Assembly: GCA_009787355.1 (NCBI GenBank)
Contig: WRGD01000144.1
Span: 1 to 43,200, forward strand
Length of the DNA: 43,200 nt
Origin: Defluviitaleaceae bacterium
Lineage (GTDB): Bacteria > Bacillota > Clostridia > Lachnospirales > UBA5962
Direction: 5' to 3'
Both the position numbers and the translations under genes were made by a program. Below the pieces are notes generated by a model. That model saw only the letters and a program-made list of their open reading frames with translations. It ran no database searches and was not told the DNA's origin. Below, piece by piece: positions 24,590-39,846 of the stretch; position 1 is the stretch's first letter; every line of letters starts with the position of its first letter.

Positions 24590-25840
24590 ATGAATAAAGT
24601 ATTAATAATAGGAAGAGGTGGGCGTGAACACGCTTTGGCAATGAAATTTAGCGAATCGCCCCATGTATCTACAATTTTTGTAGCTCCGGGAAATGTGGGT
24701 ATGAAAGATGTAGCAACTACAATAGATATAGATGAAAATAATTTCAGCGAACTAATAAAATTTGCAAAAAAAGAAAATATTAAATTAACATTTGTAGGTC
24801 CAGAAGTACCACTTGTAAATGGTATTGTAGACAAATTTAAAGAAAATAATTTAAATATTTTTGGTCCTACAAAAGCAGCCTCTATAATAGAAGGTAGTAA
24901 AGATTTTTCAAAAAATTTAATGAAAAAATATAATATACCAACAGCAGAATACGAAACTTTTACAGAATTACGACCTGCTGTAGAATATTTAAAAAAATCT
25001 AAACCTCCATATGTTTTAAAAGCCGATGGTTTAGCTGCAGGTAAGGGTGTAGTTATTTGTAACAATATAAATGAAGCAGAAAATACATTAAAAGATATGT
25101 TAAGTCAAAATAAATTTGGTGATGCTGGAGCTAAAGTTGTAATAGAAGAATTTCTTGTGGGAGAGGAATTTTCTTTTATGGCATTTGTAAATAATGAAAA
25201 AGTATATCCACTAGAACTTTCTAAAGACCATAAAACAGTTTTTGAAAATAACCAAGGCCCAAATACTGGAGGAATGGGAGCATATTCGCCTGTACCCTCT
25301 ATAACAAAAGAAATAATAGAAAGTTCTGTGAAAAATATTTTAAATCCTACAGCAAAAGCGATGGTGAAAGAGGGTAGACCTTTTACGGGGGTATTATATG
25401 CTGGGCTTATTTCTACTGTAGATGGTGTAAAAGTAATAGAGTTTAATGCACGTTTTGGAGACCCCGAAACAGAAGTTTTACTACCAAGACTACAAAGCGA
25501 TTTATTTTTAATTTTGCAAGATATACTAAATGATAAAGATATTAATTTGAAATGGAGCGAAGAAGCTTGTATAGGTGTTGTACTTTGTAGTGATGGGTAT
25601 CCAAATAAATACAAAACAGAAATACCTATAAATGGATTAAAAGAAGTTTCGAAAAATATAAATGTACTACATAGCGGTACAAAAGAAAAAAACAGTGAAA
25701 TTGTAACAAGTGGAGGTAGAGTGCTTGTACTTACAAATATAGCAAACAATTTGAAAAAAGCAAGAGAAAACATATATAATGAGATTGAAAAAATCAAATT
25801 TGATGGTATGCACTTCAGAAAAGATATTGCAGATGTTTAA
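24590..25840 (+). CDS. purD: Phosphoribosylamine-glycine ligase (GAR synthetase)
   Basis: This 416-residue ATP-grasp enzyme carries out the second step of purine synthesis. It begins with VLIIGRGGREHALA (residues 4-17) and has KADGLAAGKGVV and the signature NTGGMGAYSPVP. The metal and ATP site EFNARFGDPETEVLLPRL is present. It is cotranscribed with purH. The next promoter and terminator (25907-26022) belong to the PTS regulator. Confidence 0.98.
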   Translation: MNKVLIIGRGGREHALAMKFSESPHVSTIFVAPGNVGMKDVATTIDIDENNFSELIKFAKKENIKLTFVGPEVPLVNGIVDKFKENNLNIFGPTKAASIIEGSKDFSKNLMKKYNIPTAEYETFTELRPAVEYLKKSKPPYVLKADGLAAGKGVVICNNINEAENTLKDMLSQNKFGDAGAKVVIEEFLVGEEFSFMAFVNNEKVYPLELSKDHKTVFENNQGPNTGGMGAYSPVPSITKEIIESSVKNILNPTAKAMVKEGRPFTGVLYAGLISTVDGVKVIEFNARFGDPETEVLLPRLQSDLFLILQDILNDKDINLKWSEEACIGVVLCSDGYPNKYKTEIPINGLKEVSKNINVLHSGTKEKNSEIVTSGGRVLVLTNIANNLKKARENIYNEIEKIKFDGMHFRKDIADV

Positions 25841-25906
25841 TTTTTTATAATTAGTACCATCGAAAAAATTTTTTGAAATTTTTTAACTTTTTATTGATAT
25901 TTCATA

Positions 25907-25935
25907 TTGACAAAATGCGATAAAAAAAATAAAAT
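25907..25935 (+). promoter_or_regulatory. Strong sigma-A-type promoter of the licT-ptsH fusion
   Basis: A perfect TTGACA (25907-25912) and TAAAAT (25930-25935) are separated by 17 bases. Transcription would begin just before the RAT element at 25944. Confidence 0.8.
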
Positions 25936-25943
25936 AGTAAAAT

Positions 25944-25991
25944 AGATTGTTACTTGATTGATATCAACACTGAATCAAAAAAGGCAAAACT
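25944..25991 (+). promoter_or_regulatory. RAT: ribonucleic antiterminator target of a LicT/BglG-family protein
   Basis: AGATTGTTAC (25944-25953) and GGCAAAACT (25983-25991) are the two conserved halves of LicT/SacT-type RAT hairpins (family form GGATTGTTAC...GGCAAAACC). The usual outer GG/CC pairing is replaced here by AG/CT, a compensated change that keeps the pairs. The middle is longer than usual and has its own stem, TTGATT with AATCAA. The right half overlaps the left arm of the following terminator, so forming the RAT hairpin excludes termination. Confidence 0.82.
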
Positions 25992-26022
25992 ATAAGCCCG
26001 CGGGTATAGTTTTGCCTTTTTT
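25983..26022 (+). terminator. Regulated intrinsic terminator in the leader of the licT-ptsH fusion
   Basis: GGCAAAACTATA (25983-25994) pairs perfectly with TATAGTTTTGCC (26005-26016). A GC-rich loop containing CCCGCGGG separates the arms, and six T follow. The left arm shares its bases with the RAT element, the classical arrangement for BglG/LicT antitermination. Confidence 0.9.
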
Positions 26023-26064
26023 GATTTTCTAAATTATTTAAGGGTAAAACTAGGAGGTTTGAAA

Positions 26065-27246
26065 ATTAAGATTTTTAAAATTTTAAACAATAATGCAGCA
26101 ATTGTAAAAGAAGAATGTAAAAGAGAAATAATAGTTATTGGAAAAGGTATCTCTTTTGGTAAAAAAACCGGAGATATTTTAGCAAAAGAAAAAGTAGAAA
26201 AAACTTTTATACTTTTGGAAGAAGAAAATATAATCAAGTTTAAAGAAATTTTAAAAAAAACACCTATAGAACACATTATAATAAGCGAAAAAATAATAAA
26301 AAAAGCAAAAAATATATTAGATAATGACATTTACGAAAATATTTTTATTTCGCTTACAGACCATATATCTTTTGCTGTACAAAGATACAATAGTGGTATT
26401 TTTCTAAAAAACACTTTTTTATTTGATATAAAATTTTTTTACCCAAAAGAGTTTGAAGTAGGAAAAATAGGTATAGAAATTATTAAACAGTCTTTGGGAA
26501 TAATTTTCACAGAGGACGAGGCTGCCTTTTTAGCACTTCATTTTGTAAATGCAACTTTGTATAAAGATATAAATATTGAAAAAATTATGAATATAACAAA
26601 GCTTATAAAAGATATTTTATACATAGTTTGTGATTTTTTTAACGTTGATTTTTTTAGTATGGAAAATGACATGATTAATAAATCTGCTGAAAAATATTAC
26701 TACATTAGATTTATAAATCATATAAGATTTTTTTCATCGAGAGTTATAGAAAAAGTAATTATAGAAAATGATTATAACGGTGAGCTTGATTTTATAAAAG
26801 ATAAATACCATAATTCTTTTGCCTGTACCTTGAAAATATCAAATTTCCTTATACAAAATCATAATTATGTTATGAGCTTGGAAGAAATGTTGTATATGAC
26901 AATTCATATACAAAAAATTGTAAAAGATAGAAAACAGGATAAAATAAAAACAGACACAAATAAAACAAAATTAAACGGAGGCAAAAACATGAAAGAATTT
27001 ACTTACACTATAAAAGACCCATTAGGAATACACGCAAGACCAGCTGGTCTCTTAGTAAAAGAAGCAAAGCTATTCGATAGTGATATAAAAATAGAAGCAA
27101 ATGGAAAATCTGCAGATGCAAAAAAAATATTTTCTATAATGGGTCTCGGTGTAGAAACTGGACAAAAAATTACAGTTAAGATAGATGGTACGGATGAAGA
27201 CGTTGCGTTTGATTCTATAAAAGCGTTCTTTGAAGATAATTTTTAA
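26065..27246 (+). CDS. LicT/BglG-family transcription antiterminator fused in frame to HPr
   Basis: This is a 393-residue fusion. Residues 1-~56 are the CAT RNA-binding domain (KIFKILNNNAAIV, then VIGKGISFGKKTGD). Residues ~65-170 and ~172-283 are two PTS regulation domains, with all four phosphorylatable histidines: H100, H159, H219 and H281. From M309 on it is a complete 85-residue HPr with the active His at 323 (GIHARPAG). HPr position 46 is Lys, not the regulatory Ser. No stop codon separates the parts. AGGAGG (26052-26057) is seven bases before an ATT at 26065. Starting there aligns with the LicT N-terminus and puts the PRD1 histidines at 100 and 159 as in LicT. The TTG at 26059 is only one base from AGGAGG. 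The RAT/terminator upstream suggests autoregulation. Confidence 0.85.
   Translation: MKIFKILNNNAAIVKEECKREIIVIGKGISFGKKTGDILAKEKVEKTFILLEEENIIKFKEILKKTPIEHIIISEKIIKKAKNILDNDIYENIFISLTDHISFAVQRYNSGIFLKNTFLFDIKFFYPKEFEVGKIGIEIIKQSLGIIFTEDEAAFLALHFVNATLYKDINIEKIMNITKLIKDILYIVCDFFNVDFFSMENDMINKSAEKYYYIRFINHIRFFSSRVIEKVIIENDYNGELDFIKDKYHNSFACTLKISNFLIQNHNYVMSLEEMLYMTIHIQKIVKDRKQDKIKTDTNKTKLNGGKNMKEFTYTIKDPLGIHARPAGLLVKEAKLFDSDIKIEANGKSADAKKIFSIMGLGVETGQKITVKIDGTDEDVAFDSIKAFFEDNF
26989..27246 (+). CDS. ptsH: HPr phosphocarrier from an internal start within the fusion
   Basis: ATG 26989 lies inside the fusion frame and has a perfect GGAGG (26977-26981) seven bases upstream, exactly where a free-standing ptsH would have it. 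Initiation here would give an ordinary 85-residue HPr: H15 in GIHARPAG, Lys at position 46, length normal. HPr must work with soluble enzyme I and the EII of the same region, so a free form is expected to be needed unless another ptsH exists elsewhere. The internal site therefore probably makes the bulk of HPr. This is inference from the ribosome site; the frame itself is certain. Confidence 0.7.
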   Translation: MKEFTYTIKDPLGIHARPAGLLVKEAKLFDSDIKIEANGKSADAKKIFSIMGLGVETGQKITVKIDGTDEDVAFDSIKAFFEDNF

Positions 27247-27296
27247 AATAATTATCAAAAAGTCCATTTAATCGATGGTCGTAGGATAAATTTCCT

Positions 27297-27368
27297 AAAA
27301 TAAGTTTAGAAAAATTGGTGGGCGGAGCGAAAGCGGTATCCCATTACGAAGAAATCTAAATTTATTGT
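27297..27368 (+). other. Candidate structured leader RNA before the histidine phosphatase gene
   Basis: AATAAGTTTAGA (from about 27299) pairs over 12 positions, with one G-T wobble, with TCTAAATTTATT (ending about 27366). Inside it TGGTGGG can pair with CCCATTA around a GC-rich core that contains a GAAA tetraloop-like stretch (GAGCGAAAGCGG). A small hairpin CTTGC/GCAAG follows. The region is clearly more GC-rich than its surroundings and has no poly-T tail, so it is not an ordinary terminator. I do not recognise a known riboswitch class. Confidence 0.35.
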
Positions 27369-27415
27369 CTTGCTCCTTACTACCGCAAGTAAAATTAAAA
27401 CAAAAAGGAATGATT

Positions 27416-28012
27416 ATGAAAAAAAGGTTATATTTAGTGCGACATGGGCAAACATTATTCAACTTACGCAAAAAAATACAAGGACATTGCGACAGCCCTT
27501 TAACTGAGCTAGGACGCAAACAACCACTATATGTAAAAAAGCATTTTGAAGAACACAAAATACAAATAGACAATTATTACTGTTCTACATCGGAACGTGC
27601 AAGTGATACACTTGAAATAATAGCCCCAAATAAGCCATATATAAGATTAAAAGAACTAAAAGAACTAAATTTCGGTGTTTTTGAAGGAGAAAGTGAAGAC
27701 TTACATCAAGTACGTCCAAAAGATGCAAAAACTCATGGTGATTTATATGTAAAATTTGGTGGAGAAGATGTAGCAGATGCACAAAAACGTGTTGTAAATT
27801 GTCTAACAGAAATAATGAAAAAAGATGACCATCAAAATGTGCTTGCTGTAAGCCATGCAGGGGCTTGTTATTTTTTCACTTTGAAATTTTTTCCTGAAGT
27901 TGACTTAAACAAGATAACATTTTCTAACTGTTGTGTTTTGGTTTGGGATTATGAAGATGGAAATTTTAGTTTTGTAGAAGCTATAGAACATGACTTCTCT
28001 TTGGAAATATAA
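27416..28012 (+). CDS. Histidine phosphatase family protein (phosphoglycerate mutase-like)
   Basis: This 198-residue protein has the RHG motif LVRHGQT (catalytic H10) and the second histidine H147 in AVSHAGA. An acidic LKELNFGVFEGE stretch near residues 81-92 supplies the proton donor region. It could be a cofactor-dependent phosphoglycerate mutase, a sugar phosphatase or a broad-specificity phosphatase; sequence alone does not decide. The frame is open to 27365, but ATG 27416 has AAGGA six bases upstream and aligns with the family start. It lies between the HPr part of the fusion and ptsI, all on one strand. Confidence 0.88.
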   Translation: MKKRLYLVRHGQTLFNLRKKIQGHCDSPLTELGRKQPLYVKKHFEEHKIQIDNYYCSTSERASDTLEIIAPNKPYIRLKELKELNFGVFEGESEDLHQVRPKDAKTHGDLYVKFGGEDVADAQKRVVNCLTEIMKKDDHQNVLAVSHAGACYFFTLKFFPEVDLNKITFSNCCVLVWDYEDGNFSFVEAIEHDFSLEI

Positions 28013-28058
28013 TTTAACATTGAGAAAATATCAAACAAAATAAAGGGGGTATTTATTA

Positions 28059-28778
28059 ATGAAAAAATCTGCAATACTAGTTTTATCAATATTAGTTATA
28101 ACAATAGGAACGGTTTTATTTTTCATAAGCAGAAATAATACAAATCACGAATTAGTCCGAATAAATGAAATCTTAACAGAATTTAGTAGTATAGATGTTG
28201 ATTTAAATTCTACAGATTTGAACATTATTTCTGTAGATAGTTCAAATTTTAGATTATTAGGTCAAATTCACTCTGATGGTTTAAACTGGTCTGTACAAGA
28301 CGATACATTAACACTTTCCGAGCCAGATAGAATTAATGTTAATATACTTAACGCAGAAATAAGTTCTCCTAAAATCACATTAGAAGTCCCTAGAGGATTT
28401 TTAGAAGAAGCAGAAATAAAAACAATTTCTGGTTATGTAAATATAACAAATATGTTATTTAATAGGCTATACGTAGACATTATTTCTGGAGATTTAACTC
28501 TTACAGATGTAAATGCAAATATTTTTGAAGCCAAATCGTTGTCTGGAGATACATTATCTAATAGGATTATTTCGGAAAATATTAATATAAATGTTACCTC
28601 TGGAGATGTTAGATTGAACTTGCCATATGGACGTGCAGATTATGATTATACAACAAACACGTTATCTGGAGATGTTAGTATAACAGGTGTGCAAGAAGCC
28701 ATAGCTGATATTATTAGAAATATACATATAACTACTGTTTCTGGTGATATATATTTGAACTTTTTAGGGCTTCAATAG
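28059..28778 (+). CDS. DUF4097-like membrane-anchored beta-repeat protein
   Basis: This 239-residue protein has an N-terminal membrane anchor (residues 4-24) and an extracytoplasmic right-handed beta-repeat domain. The repeat unit with SGD/SGY turns recurs about every 20-25 residues (TISGYVNI, IISGDLTL, SLSGDTLS, VTSGDVRLN, TLSGDVSI, TVSGDIYLN). This is the pattern of DUF4097/adhesin-like proteins often found beside stress-sensing regulators in Firmicutes. The function is unknown. The start is ATG with an AAAGGGGG site. Its place inside a PTS gene series is odd. Confidence 0.82.
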   Translation: MKKSAILVLSILVITIGTVLFFISRNNTNHELVRINEILTEFSSIDVDLNSTDLNIISVDSSNFRLLGQIHSDGLNWSVQDDTLTLSEPDRINVNILNAEISSPKITLEVPRGFLEEAEIKTISGYVNITNMLFNRLYVDIISGDLTLTDVNANIFEAKSLSGDTLSNRIISENININVTSGDVRLNLPYGRADYDYTTNTLSGDVSITGVQEAIADIIRNIHITTVSGDIYLNFLGLQ

Positions 28779-28847
28779 ATAAGTGCAATGTTAAGTGATG
28801 CTAAAATATCACCGTAAAAATAAAAATTCAAAATTATTGGAGGAAAT

Positions 28848-30458
28848 ATGAAAATTTTAAAAGGAACACCGATAACAGAAAGAATAGCCTTTGGAAAATT
28901 ACATTTTTACAAAAAAACAGATTTGGATATAAAAAAACGTGAAGTTTTAGACATAACAGAAGAGCTAAAAAAATATGAAGACACAAAAAAAATAGCAGTT
29001 GGTCAATTAAAAGATTTATATGAAAAAACACTAAAAACTATTGGTGAAGAAGAGGCAATGATTTTTGATGTTCACCAAATGATGTTATTAGATGATGAAT
29101 ACAACGATTATATAAAAGATATAATCGAAAAAAATTTAAATGCAGAATATGCAATAAATGAGGCAAAAAACGAATTTAAAAATATGTTTCTTGCTATGGA
29201 TAGCGAATATATGAGAGCTAGGTCGGTTGATATTTGTGATATTTCTGACAGATTAATAAATATAATTTTGGGTAATTCTAACAGCCTTAATTTTGAAGAA
29301 CCAGTAATATTAGCAGCTGAAGATTTAACTCCGAGTGAGACAGTTTCTATGGACAAAGAAAAAATATTAGGGTTTGTTACAACTGCAGGTTCTAAAAATT
29401 CACACACTGCAATTTTAGCAAAAATGTTAGATTTACCAGCTCTTATTGGTGTTGATAAAGAAGTTGAAAGTTTTCATGGTGAAAATGTAATAGTATGTGG
29501 TGCAAGTGGACAAATATACGTAAATCCAGACGAAGAAACGACAAACGATATTAAACAAAAAGTAAAAGAACAAGAAGAAGCAAAAGATTTTTTAAAAAGC
29601 TTAATAGGTCAAGAAAATGTAACAAAGGATGGTAGAAAAATAGATATATTTTCAAATATTGGAAATGTATACGATGTTACAAATGTTATAAAAAATGACG
29701 CTGGTGGAATAGGACTTTTTAGGTCGGAGTTTTTATACCTAGATTCCAAAGATTATCCAACAGAACAAGACCAATTTTTTGCATACAAAACTGTGCTAGA
29801 AAAGATGCATGGAAAAAAAGTAATAGTAAGAACTTTAGACATAGGAGCAGACAAACAAGTAGACTATTTCGGCTTAGAAAAAGAAGAAAATCCAGCACTT
29901 GGTATGCGTGCAATACGTATATGTCTTACAAGACCAGATATTTTCAAAACACAACTTAGAGCACTTTTCCGTGCTAGTAGTTTTGGAAATTTAGCAATAA
30001 TGTTTCCTATGATAATATCTGTAGAAGAAGTTTTAAAATCTAAACTAATAATTGAAGAAGTAAAAAAGGAACTTGAAAAAGAAGGTCATCCATATGCAGA
30101 CAATGTTGAAATAGGAATAATGATAGAAACACCAGCAGCAGCAATAATAAGCGACCTTTTGGCAAAAGAAGTAGATTTTTTTAGTATAGGTACTAACGAT
30201 TTAACAAGCTATGTAACAGCAATAGATAGACAAAATCTTAGCTTAGCAGAGTTCGATAATCCTTATCATCCAGCAGTTCTTAGAATGATAGAACAAACAA
30301 CCAAAAATGCAAAAGATGCTGGTATTTGGGTAGGAATATGTGGAGAACTTGCAGCAGATACAAATTTAACAGAATATTTTTTAAAAATAGGTATAGACGA
30401 ACTCTCTGTTTCCCCACCTTATGTACTGCCACTTAGAAATAAAGTTAGAAGTTTGTAA
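28848..30458 (+). CDS. ptsI: PTS enzyme I (phosphoenolpyruvate-protein phosphotransferase)
   Basis: This 536-residue enzyme transfers phosphate from PEP to HPr, the first step of PTS sugar uptake. The active His is H186 in TTAGSKNSHTAILA. PEP-binding motifs are TLDIGADKQ, NPALGMRAIR and, near the C-terminus, GICGELAAD with the proton-donating Cys. The length is slightly below the usual ~570. The start is ATG with a GGAGG site. It lies two genes downstream of the HPr-containing fusion and upstream of the beta-glucoside EII. Confidence 0.97.
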   Translation: MKILKGTPITERIAFGKLHFYKKTDLDIKKREVLDITEELKKYEDTKKIAVGQLKDLYEKTLKTIGEEEAMIFDVHQMMLLDDEYNDYIKDIIEKNLNAEYAINEAKNEFKNMFLAMDSEYMRARSVDICDISDRLINIILGNSNSLNFEEPVILAAEDLTPSETVSMDKEKILGFVTTAGSKNSHTAILAKMLDLPALIGVDKEVESFHGENVIVCGASGQIYVNPDEETTNDIKQKVKEQEEAKDFLKSLIGQENVTKDGRKIDIFSNIGNVYDVTNVIKNDAGGIGLFRSEFLYLDSKDYPTEQDQFFAYKTVLEKMHGKKVIVRTLDIGADKQVDYFGLEKEENPALGMRAIRICLTRPDIFKTQLRALFRASSFGNLAIMFPMIISVEEVLKSKLIIEEVKKELEKEGHPYADNVEIGIMIETPAAAIISDLLAKEVDFFSIGTNDLTSYVTAIDRQNLSLAEFDNPYHPAVLRMIEQTTKNAKDAGIWVGICGELAADTNLTEYFLKIGIDELSVSPPYVLPLRNKVRSL

Positions 30459-30476
30459 TAGATACTATATAAATTA

Positions 30477-30515
30477 ATATCGTGTTAAGAACTGTAGTTG
30501 TTTTTAGCACGATAT
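30477..30515 (+). repeat. Intergenic hairpin after ptsI without a T-tract
   Basis: ATATCGTG (30477-30484) pairs with CACGATAT (30508-30515), with further pairing inside the loop (GAAC/GTTG). It lies 20 bases after ptsI and is followed by GATGAA, not by T residues. Confidence 0.5.
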
Positions 30516-30608
30516 GATGAAATATATAGAATTTTTAATAGAAAATAACTAATACTAAGGTATAAGATAATATAGCTACACACGACGTATAGTTTATAAG
30601 AAATAAAA

Positions 30609-30652
30609 AAATATCTATGGATACTAAATGGAGTAAGTATCCATAGATATTT
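30609..30652 (+). repeat. 17-bp perfect stem-loop between ptsI and the beta-glucoside EII gene
   Basis: AAATATCTATGGATACT (30609-30625) pairs perfectly with AGTATCCATAGATATTT (30636-30652) around a 10-base loop. A T-run (T6) follows only after eight bases (AAAACTTG). It may terminate the ptsI transcript or act as a leader structure or operator for the downstream gene. I find no RAT sequence next to it. Confidence 0.65.
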
Positions 30653-30706
30653 AAAACTTGTTTTTTAAGAAATATAAAAAAGTATACGGCTACAAAAAAA
30701 TTATAA

Positions 30707-32680
<1,974 letters not shown>

Positions 32681-36576: not shown

Positions 36577-39500
36577 GTGTACAAAAAAATTTTTAATTTA
36601 TTTATAATCACATTGTTTGTTATGAATACGCAACCCGTTTTTGCAAATGAAAATAACGAAGAGTATCAAAGTATTTATTACATTCAAAATGAAATCGAAA
36701 ATATAAATAATTTAGAAGTAGCAAATGTAGAGCAAACTGTAACAGAGATATTTAACTATAGTTTTAATAAGAGATTACAACTAGGTTCATATAGTCAAAT
36801 ACCTGTGCTTTATGAAAACGAAAATAATATAAATCCTGTTCTATATTTCAACACTGATAGTAACAATAATATATGGCAAGTTATATACAGATTAAATAAC
36901 TTACAAAATGCAATCGTAACATTTGAAACTCACGAAGATTTTTTATATATAGATTATAAACTATCAAGCTATGAGAATATACCAAATATTTTTATACACA
37001 CAAATAATTTTGGTATGCTAGATATATTGCAGTATATTTATAATATCCCCCAAAATGAAAATTATACGATTTTCAATAATAGTGATAACCCTAATTTTAG
37101 AATTAAAAATGGTTACGGTATTAGTTTTATGTACGGAACAAGACCAGTACACATACTTTGGGAAAATGACATTCTTTATATAAGTTTTGAAGATTTTAAA
37201 AATAATTTTAATCACTACACTGAATTTTGGATTAGCGAAAATGATAACGAATTAGTATTATATAAAACTTTAAATATTTCAAATTTTGTAGATGATAATG
37301 GTTATACGGGTGGTACAAATGTTGGGGGTAGTGATAATAATCAAAATAATAGCCAAGATACATTTACAGAAAATTGGATAAACCCACCTAGCTTACAGGG
37401 AAATGAAGTAAGTTTATTTGAAAATTCTGATATTGTATGGTTTGCAAATACAAGATTAACAGCTCTTTTACAAAGTGGTATAACAACGGAAGATATAAAT
37501 AAAGCTATAGAATATTTGGGTGGTAGAGTTATTGGGTATATACCTATAATACGAGAATTTACAATAGAAGTACCTGCTAATGATTTAGATGGTTTGTTTG
37601 ATTTATCAAATTATTTGATGAATAACCATAGCAATATTTTTGATTATGTTACTATTTATACAGGACTTTTTGAAGATGCAACAAATTCTACTAGAGGAAG
37701 GGTACCAGAAGGAACCCCTTCTCCTTTTCATCCTGTGGAACCAGTAACGGAAGAACAAAGAGTAGGCACTCAAATTATAGGATTATTATTTTTAACAGGA
37801 TTAATATATTATCGTATAATATTACCTTTTTTAATATTATCTACAATAATTGCGATAACTATAAAATTTATAAAGAACGAATACAAATACGAAAAAATAG
37901 TATTTAAAACTTTAAAAATATTATGGCTTTTATTTATAATTGTTATACCATCCATATTATATGCAAGAACAACTAATACACCAACAAATGACCCTTGGTG
38001 GAATAATAGAGAATGGGGATTAACAGCTATAAATGCACCTCTTACATGGGATATTTATGGAGATGAAATATCTAATATACGAGTAGGTATTGTAGACGAT
38101 GGTATTGGCGTTGATTCTGAAATAAATGGTCTTTTTAATTCTCACGAAGACTTAACGATATCATTTAGAAATTTTAGAGTGCATCATGGTTTAAGAAATC
38201 ATGGTCAGCACGTTTTAGGTACAATAGGAGCAACACATAATAACGGTCTTGGTGTAACAGGGGTTGCAAATTTATTACCCAGTTACCTTTTTAGTTACGA
38301 TGCATTTGGTAGTTTTTGGTGGGTACATGAAGATTGGAGACTAGCTGTATCTGACAGAGAAACAAGAGCAGGTTTAGTTTGGAATGTAGAGAGAGGTACT
38401 AGAATAATAAATTTTAGTATTGGATGGCCAAAATATGTTAATGTTTTCGGTAATACTGTTACAAATGTTCCTGTTACTGTAGGTCAATCAACTAGACTAT
38501 ATAGAAATACTTTACAAGAATTATTAAATCAAGGTCATGATTTTTTAATAGTACACGCTGCAGGTAACGATACAAGAAATGCTAGATTAACGGGATTTTG
38601 GGCTTTAATACAAGAACCAAATTTAAGAGACAGAATAATCACAGTAGGAGCAACAGATAGAAACAACAAATTAGTATATTTTTCAAACTATGGTTCTATA
38701 GTAGATATAGTAGCCCCCGGCTATAGCATTTTTAGTACACTTGCAAATAGAAATGGGGGATATAGTCAAGTAGGAAGTGGTAGAGGAGTATATGGCTACA
38801 TGGACGGAACCTCAATGGCAGCTCCCCATGTAACAGGTGTTGCTGCTCTCGTATGGGGTGCTAATCCGAATTTGACAGCTAGTGAAGTAAAAAATATTAT
38901 TGTAACAGCCAGTACAAGAGAAGATAGGCAAATAAGAGAGCATAGAAATGTTACTGATAGACGAAACTACTATCTAATAGACTCACTATCTTCTGTTCAT
39001 ATGGCAGTACACGGTGAAACTGCTAGATTGCGTGGCACTGTACTATCTGATGCAAATAATAATTTTGTAAGAAATTCTGCTATAACTTTAGAAAGTATAT
39101 TTGGTGATACTGTATTTACTGCTTTTAGCGATGAAAATGGTTTTTTTGATATAAATGAAATACCATTAGACAGATATAGATTAACAATAAGAGCTTCTGG
39201 CTTTATAACTTATGAGGAAACGCTAGATTTAACGAATGTTAAAGTTCTTATAGATGATTTTGCTTTGGAACCTTTTACGGGGCTAATAAATATAAATACA
39301 GCCAGCTTAGAGCAATTATTAACTCTTCCCGGTATAGGTATTACACTTGCAAACCGTATAATAGAACATAGAAATACATATGGTTTATTTAATACTACAG
39401 AAGATTTGATGAATGTACATGGAATAGCATTAATGAGATATTTAGGTGTAGCAAGTCTTATAACAGTAGATGAAACATTAAATATACCGAATGTAAGAAT

Positions 39501-39846
39501 AAATCTAAATACGGCAAATAGTTCACAATTGCAAAGACTACCCGGCATAGGAAATGTACTTGCGAACAGGATAATAGCGTATAGAAATACGCACGGTCTT
39601 TTTAACACTACAAATGAAATAACAAATGTAAGTGGAATAGGAATACATACATATATAAAAATAAGCAATTTTATATATGTAGATAGCAGAAATATATTTT
39701 TGCCACCTACTTTAAGAACAATTATTGTAAATGAGGATTTTACAATATACGAAAATGATTTTTTAGATGATTTCTTAGAAGAGCAAGATATAACACTTAA
39801 CGATATTTTTGAATATATTAATGAATTTAATGAAATTATATATTAG
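36577..39846 (+). CDS. Membrane-anchored subtilase (S8) with CarboxypepD-reg-like domain and two C-terminal ComEA-like HhH modules
   Basis: This 1089-residue exported protein starts at GTG with an AAGG site. It has a signal peptide (1-~24), then an N-terminal region without known domain (25-~280). A propeptide-like segment (~285-365) is followed by membrane segments at ~398-431 and ~446-463 enclosing a basic cytoplasmic loop. This places the subtilase domain (~475-785) outside the cell. The catalytic triad is complete: D507 (GIVDDG), H542 (NHGQHVLG) and S746 (DGTSMAAPHV), with oxyanion N664 (AAGND). A carboxypeptidase-regulatory-like beta domain follows (~815-898). Two helix-hairpin-helix modules (~903-963 and ~973-1036) share ININTASLEQLLTLPGIG-type sequence with ComEA. 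Such HhH units normally bind DNA. The function of the combination is unknown. Confidence 0.88.
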   Translation: MYKKIFNLFIITLFVMNTQPVFANENNEEYQSIYYIQNEIENINNLEVANVEQTVTEIFNYSFNKRLQLGSYSQIPVLYENENNINPVLYFNTDSNNNIWQVIYRLNNLQNAIVTFETHEDFLYIDYKLSSYENIPNIFIHTNNFGMLDILQYIYNIPQNENYTIFNNSDNPNFRIKNGYGISFMYGTRPVHILWENDILYISFEDFKNNFNHYTEFWISENDNELVLYKTLNISNFVDDNGYTGGTNVGGSDNNQNNSQDTFTENWINPPSLQGNEVSLFENSDIVWFANTRLTALLQSGITTEDINKAIEYLGGRVIGYIPIIREFTIEVPANDLDGLFDLSNYLMNNHSNIFDYVTIYTGLFEDATNSTRGRVPEGTPSPFHPVEPVTEEQRVGTQIIGLLFLTGLIYYRIILPFLILSTIIAITIKFIKNEYKYEKIVFKTLKILWLLFIIVIPSILYARTTNTPTNDPWWNNREWGLTAINAPLTWDIYGDEISNIRVGIVDDGIGVDSEINGLFNSHEDLTISFRNFRVHHGLRNHGQHVLGTIGATHNNGLGVTGVANLLPSYLFSYDAFGSFWWVHEDWRLAVSDRETRAGLVWNVERGTRIINFSIGWPKYVNVFGNTVTNVPVTVGQSTRLYRNTLQELLNQGHDFLIVHAAGNDTRNARLTGFWALIQEPNLRDRIITVGATDRNNKLVYFSNYGSIVDIVAPGYSIFSTLANRNGGYSQVGSGRGVYGYMDGTSMAAPHVTGVAALVWGANPNLTASEVKNIIVTASTREDRQIREHRNVTDRRNYYLIDSLSSVHMAVHGETARLRGTVLSDANNNFVRNSAITLESIFGDTVFTAFSDENGFFDINEIPLDRYRLTIRASGFITYEETLDLTNVKVLIDDFALEPFTGLININTASLEQLLTLPGIGITLANRIIEHRNTYGLFNTTEDLMNVHGIALMRYLGVASLITVDETLNIPNVRINLNTANSSQLQRLPGIGNVLANRIIAYRNTHGLFNTTNEITNVSGIGIHTYIKISNFIYVDSRNIFLPPTLRTIIVNEDFTIYENDFLDDFLEEQDITLNDIFEYINEFNEIIY

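Follow-up and report, generated by a model that had tools for sequence, protein, structure and literature searches.

A predicted licT-ptsH fusion gene at the head of a putative autogenous beta-glucoside PTS operon in a Defluviitaleaceae bacterium

A window of 43,200 nucleotides, the whole stretch of DNA analysed here, carries an open reading frame that links a LicT-type antiterminator to a complete HPr. The preferred reading of this locus, to which I would assign a probability of roughly 0.45, is an autogenous operon for beta-glucoside and general PTS functions that opens with a licT-ptsH fusion, a gene from which two products are likely, and in which the tethered HPr would charge PRD2 of the antiterminator. 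The window is contig 144 of an assembly of 2.25 Mb in 152 contigs that is 96.5% complete.

Results

A single open frame for antiterminator and HPr

The preliminary description of this DNA had placed the regulator and HPr in one uninterrupted frame, and this held: the frame on the forward strand is without a stop throughout, the nearest in-frame stop upstream lies at 25993-25995, and all domains were recovered by Pfam from a single protein, with E-values of 2.7e-17 for CAT_RBD, 4.6e-31 for the two PRD stretches and 2.2e-27 for PTS-HPr. The gene and its parts are:

26065..27246, + strand: CAT-PRD-PRD-HPr fusion gene, one open frame of 393 aa plus stop
26068..26229, + strand: CAT RNA-binding domain (PF03123, 62.9 bits, cut-off 25)
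26287..26553, + strand: PRD1 (PF00874, 78.5 bits; aligned to 1tlv/6twr) with His100 (26362-26364) and His159 (26539-26541)
26677..26916, + strand: PRD2 (PF00874, 43.2 bits; aligned to 1tlv and relatives) with His219 (26719-26721) and His281 (26905-26907)
26923..26988, + strand: Lys/Asn/Thr-rich linker of 22 residues, counterpart of the ptsH leader in relatives
26989..27246, + strand: HPr domain and probable separate HPr of 85 aa (PF00381, TIGR01003, alignments)
27031-27033 and 27124-27126, + strand: His15 and Lys46 of HPr (alignments)

Pfam matches together with LicT and HPr alignments bore out the CAT domain, the two PRDs with all four histidines and the complete HPr with His15. In an alignment with B. 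subtilis LicT (1tlv, 1h99) and 34 relatives, His100, His159, His219 and His281 correspond to LicT sites 100, 159, 207 and 269, and all four are invariant or nearly so across the solved B. subtilis LicT chains and these relatives. The HPr part scores above the cut-offs of both PF00381 and TIGR01003 and has kept its active-site His15. The N-terminal CAT domain, the two PRDs with four histidines and a predicted RAT overlapping a terminator (see below) are those of the BglG/SacY (LicT-type) family. The protein reached 274.6 bits against the NCBIfam LicT equivalog NF046042, which is below the curated cut-off of 300, and it is consequently filed as LicT-type and not as a LicT equivalog. It is the sole PRD protein of the genome.

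The linker is rich in Lys, Asn and Thr, as had been described, and is 22 codons long instead of about 25. Its residues 291-305 had a pLDDT below 50 in both AlphaFold models and are predicted to be disordered, while CAT, PRD1 and PRD2 were well predicted with full LicT relatives in the alignment and HPr was well predicted with HPr relatives in the alignment. One model was built from an alignment with shortened rows and the other from LicT rows alone; both are monomers and thus uninformative on docking. The licT half has no stop codon of its own. If the assembly is correct, the organism can therefore have LicT in fused form only, and it is the disappearance of all licT stops that created the fusion.

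A predicted autogenous leader and the PTS genes behind it

Upstream of the fusion the following elements were predicted:

25907..25935, + strand: sigma-70-type promoter for the operon, TTGACA-17-TAAAAT, 11 of 12 consensus positions (consensus match only)
25945..25990, + strand: RAT (ribonucleic antiterminator) of LicT type, GATTGTTACT...GGCAAAAC
25972..26027, + strand: intrinsic terminator hairpin with T-run, overlapping the 3' half of the RAT

The promoter is the best site within 25800-31000, and its position relative to the RAT resembles that of the mapped S. mutans bglP promoter (PMC1489936). The RAT pattern was expected 0 times in shuffles, and this copy, which folds at -6.8 kcal/mol, is the sole exact match in the whole genome. 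Relatives have RATs of mostly 24-27 nt; this one, extended at its apex by about 20 nt, has an unusual length of 45 nt, and binding of the antiterminator is for this reason assumed. An Rfam scan of the window returned no matches, the RAT included. The 86-nt leader has a predicted folding energy of -33 kcal/mol (z -7.2), matched by 0 of 200 shuffles. With its own promoter, RAT and terminator preceding the fusion, the locus is predicted to be an autogenous operon. The preliminary description had been silent on the RAT and terminator that would make it so, as well as on the ATT start and the missing Ser46 described below, all of which were found here.

The genes following the fusion are:

27416..28012, + strand: histidine phosphatase superfamily gene (PF00300)
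28059..28778, + strand: DUF4097 (LiaG-like) gene (PF13349; NF049997 below cut-off)
28848..30458, + strand: ptsI, enzyme I (PF05524/PF02896, TIGR01417), the sole EI N-terminal domain of the genome
30740..32680, + strand: bglP-type beta-glucoside PTS EIIBCA (TIGR01995, 685 bits against a cut-off of 614.7)

A G+C-richer stem-loop, present in one copy in the window, lies between the fusion and the next gene (27299-27366). Two very stable hairpins occupy the gap between ptsI and bglP (30468-30521 and 30609-30652, z about -6 and -6.7), neither with a RAT, and these are possible processing or termination sites. Further downstream, 36577-39846 encodes, judged from its translation only, a large subtilisin-like protease with C-terminal helix-hairpin-helix (ComEA-like) repeats.

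A scan of the genome's contigs gave five HPr loci only. The second HPr has His15 and Ser46 and belongs to another PTS cluster, and a Crh-like HPr has Gln15 and Ser46 (L064, 5174-5467 on the - strand of contig C123). The Crh-like HPr adjoins a frame that, read by eye, is RNA-pseudouridine-synthase-like. HprK is also encoded.

Two probable translation starts

Two ribosome binding sites were predicted for the fusion gene, one ahead of the frame and one within it:

26052..26057, + strand: Shine-Dalgarno sequence AGGAGG of the fusion (-10.8 kcal/mol anti-SD duplex), 7 nt before ATT 26065
26065..26067, + strand: probable ATT start codon of the fusion, aligning with Met1 of almost all relatives
26976..26981, + strand: internal Shine-Dalgarno sequence CGGAGG for free HPr (-9.5 kcal/mol), followed by ATG 26989

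The next canonical in-frame start after ATT 26065 is codon 51, and TTG 26059 was rejected as the start since it abuts the Shine-Dalgarno sequence with zero spacing. As no ATG, GTG or TTG is usable, the start was read as ATT. Gene finders that accept canonical starts only would overlook or misassign this probable ATT behind a well-spaced AGGAGG. Initiation at ATT is rare and is repressed by IF3; the known example is E. coli infC, and a non-canonical start in Streptomyces determines how much of a sigma factor is made relative to its partner (PMC5472188). Because ATT is a rare start under IF3 repression, the fusion is probably a minor product of its gene.

The internal site outranks all 152 internal in-frame ATGs of the 21 window genes and is stronger than 18 of the 21 gene starts (weaker than just three), and the region around it is predicted to be unstructured. 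The frame thus holds a predicted internal ribosome site with its start codon, as a gene for two products would. Because this site is strong and intact, I consider it likely that free HPr is also made, provided that the fusion is real. The earlier view that the linker took in the former ptsH ribosome site stands, but not as a mere relic, and a picture with tethered HPr only is too simple. In G+C content and residue make-up, the HPr part is like ptsI and other likely well-expressed genes of the window, and the licT part is like tilS.

Relatives carry licT and ptsH as two genes

Four genomes (G225, G330, G371, G1249) have licT followed by ptsH in the same frame, with HPr starting 24-63 nt past the licT stop and one to three in-frame stops parting the two genes; in G225, G330 and G371 ptsI comes next after ptsH. 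The search method favours such in-frame pairs. All four gave full-length matches in the search table, yet with their internal stops they were rejected as fusions. The proposal that the fusion arose by loss of the licT stop gains partial support from this layout.

No second CAT-PRD-PRD-HPr fusion was found in about 1,700 genomes drawn from the order, the class, the phylum, a related family and another class within the phylum; the large searches applied strict cut-offs (1e-40 to 1e-50), and for each genome only four to six candidates were scored. The database search proposed for CAT-PRD-PRD-PTS_HPr architectures hence gave no other instance. An HMM scan of frames in 143 loci with a match yielded no further fusion, and the open-licence literature yielded no CAT-PRD-HPr protein. 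A conserved family of this architecture is ruled out at the sensitivity used for these genomes and loci. The preliminary description took relatives with invariably two separate genes as evidence against the fusion, and all relatives found do have two genes; none is of the same genus. Since they all come from other genera, their layout points to a lineage-specific fusion rather than a false one.

Read in the same register, the window linker (AACGGAGGCAAAAACATG) is similar to the G1249 ptsH leader (AATGGAGGCAAACTAATG), with GGAGGCAAA common to both, and the linker is therefore best read as a former ptsH leader. In a LicT tree the window protein has a long branch and groups on the LicT side, away from the other licT-ptsH pairs; these are scattered at distant places, none of them closely sister to it. 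Common descent of the window licT with other licT-ptsH neighbours was considered and receives no support from the tree. The scattered positions indicate that licT-ptsH adjacency probably arose repeatedly. The window HPr and EI showed mostly 48-61% identity to other families of the order tested and 33-43% to their own family, which suggests horizontal exchange of the pts genes. In another genome (G020), a second HPr follows directly after EIIA (L119, 8404-8676) in a cluster that already has HPr-EI-licT, making two HPr types.

Position 46 of the fused HPr is Lys, and the regulatory Ser46 of B. subtilis-type HPr is absent, so that HprK should be unable to act on the fused HPr although the genome encodes it. 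Across the order, EI-linked HPrs nearly always have Lys, Arg or Gln at this position and not Ser (L103, L104, L105, L108, L110, L111, L117, L060, L146), and all four HPrs of G225, G330, G371 and G1249 lack Ser46; a genome of the same family (G001, L122) has kept it. Loss of Ser46 as a consequence of the fusion was discarded, as the free HPrs of relatives likewise have Lys, Arg or Gln.

Discussion

The fusion shares with LicT of B. subtilis and S. mutans, and with BglG-SacY antiterminators generally, the order CAT-PRD1-PRD2 and the four histidines, and with the two LicT systems also a RAT-terminator leader and a BglP-type beta-glucoside EIIBCA in the same cluster. Its own are the C-terminal HPr, the ATT start, the sub-cut-off NCBIfam LicT score, and a RAT that precedes its own gene and is about 20 nt longer in its apical part. 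GlcT and the ptsGHI operon are similar in that a PRD antiterminator regulates a cluster with ptsH and ptsI, but GlcT stands alone as a protein, the fusion scores higher for LicT (274.6 bits) than for GlcT (184.5 bits), and its RAT fits the LicT consensus pattern. The licT-ptsH(-ptsI) clusters of the four genomes described above also have licT immediately before an in-frame ptsH, but as two genes. Covalent joining of PTS carrier domains to partners is found in FPr (EIIA-HPr) and DhaM; to my knowledge, no known protein joins HPr to a CAT-PRD antiterminator. The PRD regulators LevR, MtlR and Mga/AtxA bear EIIA/EIIB-like domains and not HPr (PMC6148471, PMC8560693). Clostridiales sigma-54 enhancer-binding proteins are likewise transcription regulators bearing an HPr-like domain (PMC6615313), but these are AAA+ DNA-binding activators without CAT or RAT, and they carry the domain in their N-terminal regulatory region.

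That free HPr phosphorylates the PRDs of LicT-type proteins, as the preliminary description assumed, is established in B. subtilis, where HPr(His15~P) activates PRD regulators via PRD2 and the cognate transporter or EIIB inactivates them via PRD1 (PMC6148471; PMC1489936); LicT is activated by HPr~P and controls bglPH (PMC1489936). By analogy, transcription of the locus would end in the leader whenever active LicT is not bound to the RAT. The fusion would be translated at a low level from the ATT start, and free HPr at a higher level from the internal site to serve EI and the EIIs. Enzyme I would phosphorylate the fused HPr on His15. From there the phosphate may pass to PRD2 (His219/His281), in the same chain or in that of the dimer partner, because the flexible 22-residue linker keeps HPr tethered nearby. 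The antiterminator would thereby be kept in a state permitted by the supply of PEP and EI. Without beta-glucoside, BglP-EIIB~P would inactivate the fusion through PRD1; beta-glucosides would drain phosphate from EIIB and the fusion would turn on its own operon. With Lys46, HprK could not switch the fused donor off. Phosphorylation of PRD2 in cis is plausible by this analogy, and whether the tethered HPr is an important cis donor rather than a passenger is about even. Free HPr and the second His15 HPr could charge PRD2 in trans, which would make the tether redundant. The divergence of the LicT part, seen in its long branch and its score below the NCBIfam LicT cut-off, also counts against the preferred reading.

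The strongest rival, distinctly less probable than the preferred reading though a serious one, is a real but neutral fusion in which the HPr tail is a passenger, free HPr charges PRD2 as in B. subtilis, and HPr is made mainly from the internal start. The strong internal ribosome site and weak ATT start fit it, as does the second HPr with His15. The linker is like an unselected AT-rich leader, and, given adjacent same-frame genes, about 9% of 22-codon intergenic stretches of the AT-rich window would be open by chance, so that an open linker is unremarkable in itself. Nevertheless, every LicT would still bear an HPr with intact His15 within a few nm, and hence at high local concentration, unless enzyme I is excluded from it.

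I hold the fusion itself to be very probably real. The chief weakness of the case is that the evidence comes from one assembly only, and an error of consensus or assembly, with the organism having a licT with stop and a ptsH as its relatives do, would fit the one to three stops retained by every adjacent pair found elsewhere; 11 of the 22 linker codons are, moreover, one base from a stop. This is improbable, since the linker has stops in both alternative frames, the adjacent genes are undamaged, and nothing interrupts the frame, which stays in phase up to the ptsH start. A substitution error would need to hit the stop exactly, and consensus substitution errors are rare in a well-covered contig. 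Least probable is a decaying licT whose ATG became ATT, whose stop was lost and from which only HPr is made at the internal start: the non-canonical start, the long branch and the very low G+C of the licT part (22%) are met by 286 open codons in a window of 29% G+C, retained conserved CAT/PRD residues and all four histidines, a consensus RAT with a strong Shine-Dalgarno sequence, and an equally low G+C of tilS in the same window.

A more far-reaching version of the self-charging fusion is speculative and somewhat less probable than the passenger account. An IF3-sensitive ATT and a strong internal start would fix the proportions of two proteins from one gene. Free HPr would be abundant; the antiterminator would be scarce and, by carrying its own HPr, would read EI/PEP directly, with no input from HprK. 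Stop loss would then have turned a phosphorelay between two proteins into a self-charging RNA switch.

PRD regulators are normally charged by a diffusible HPr that serves every sugar transporter, and local and global phosphate flow are hard to separate. A natural LicT-HPr fusion would offer a ready test of whether a regulator with a tethered donor is shielded from competition and from catabolite control through HprK. The locus, with relatives that show the parental layout, also illustrates how a new signalling protein could arise when stop codons between in-frame neighbours are lost and an internal ribosome site keeps the original product in place.
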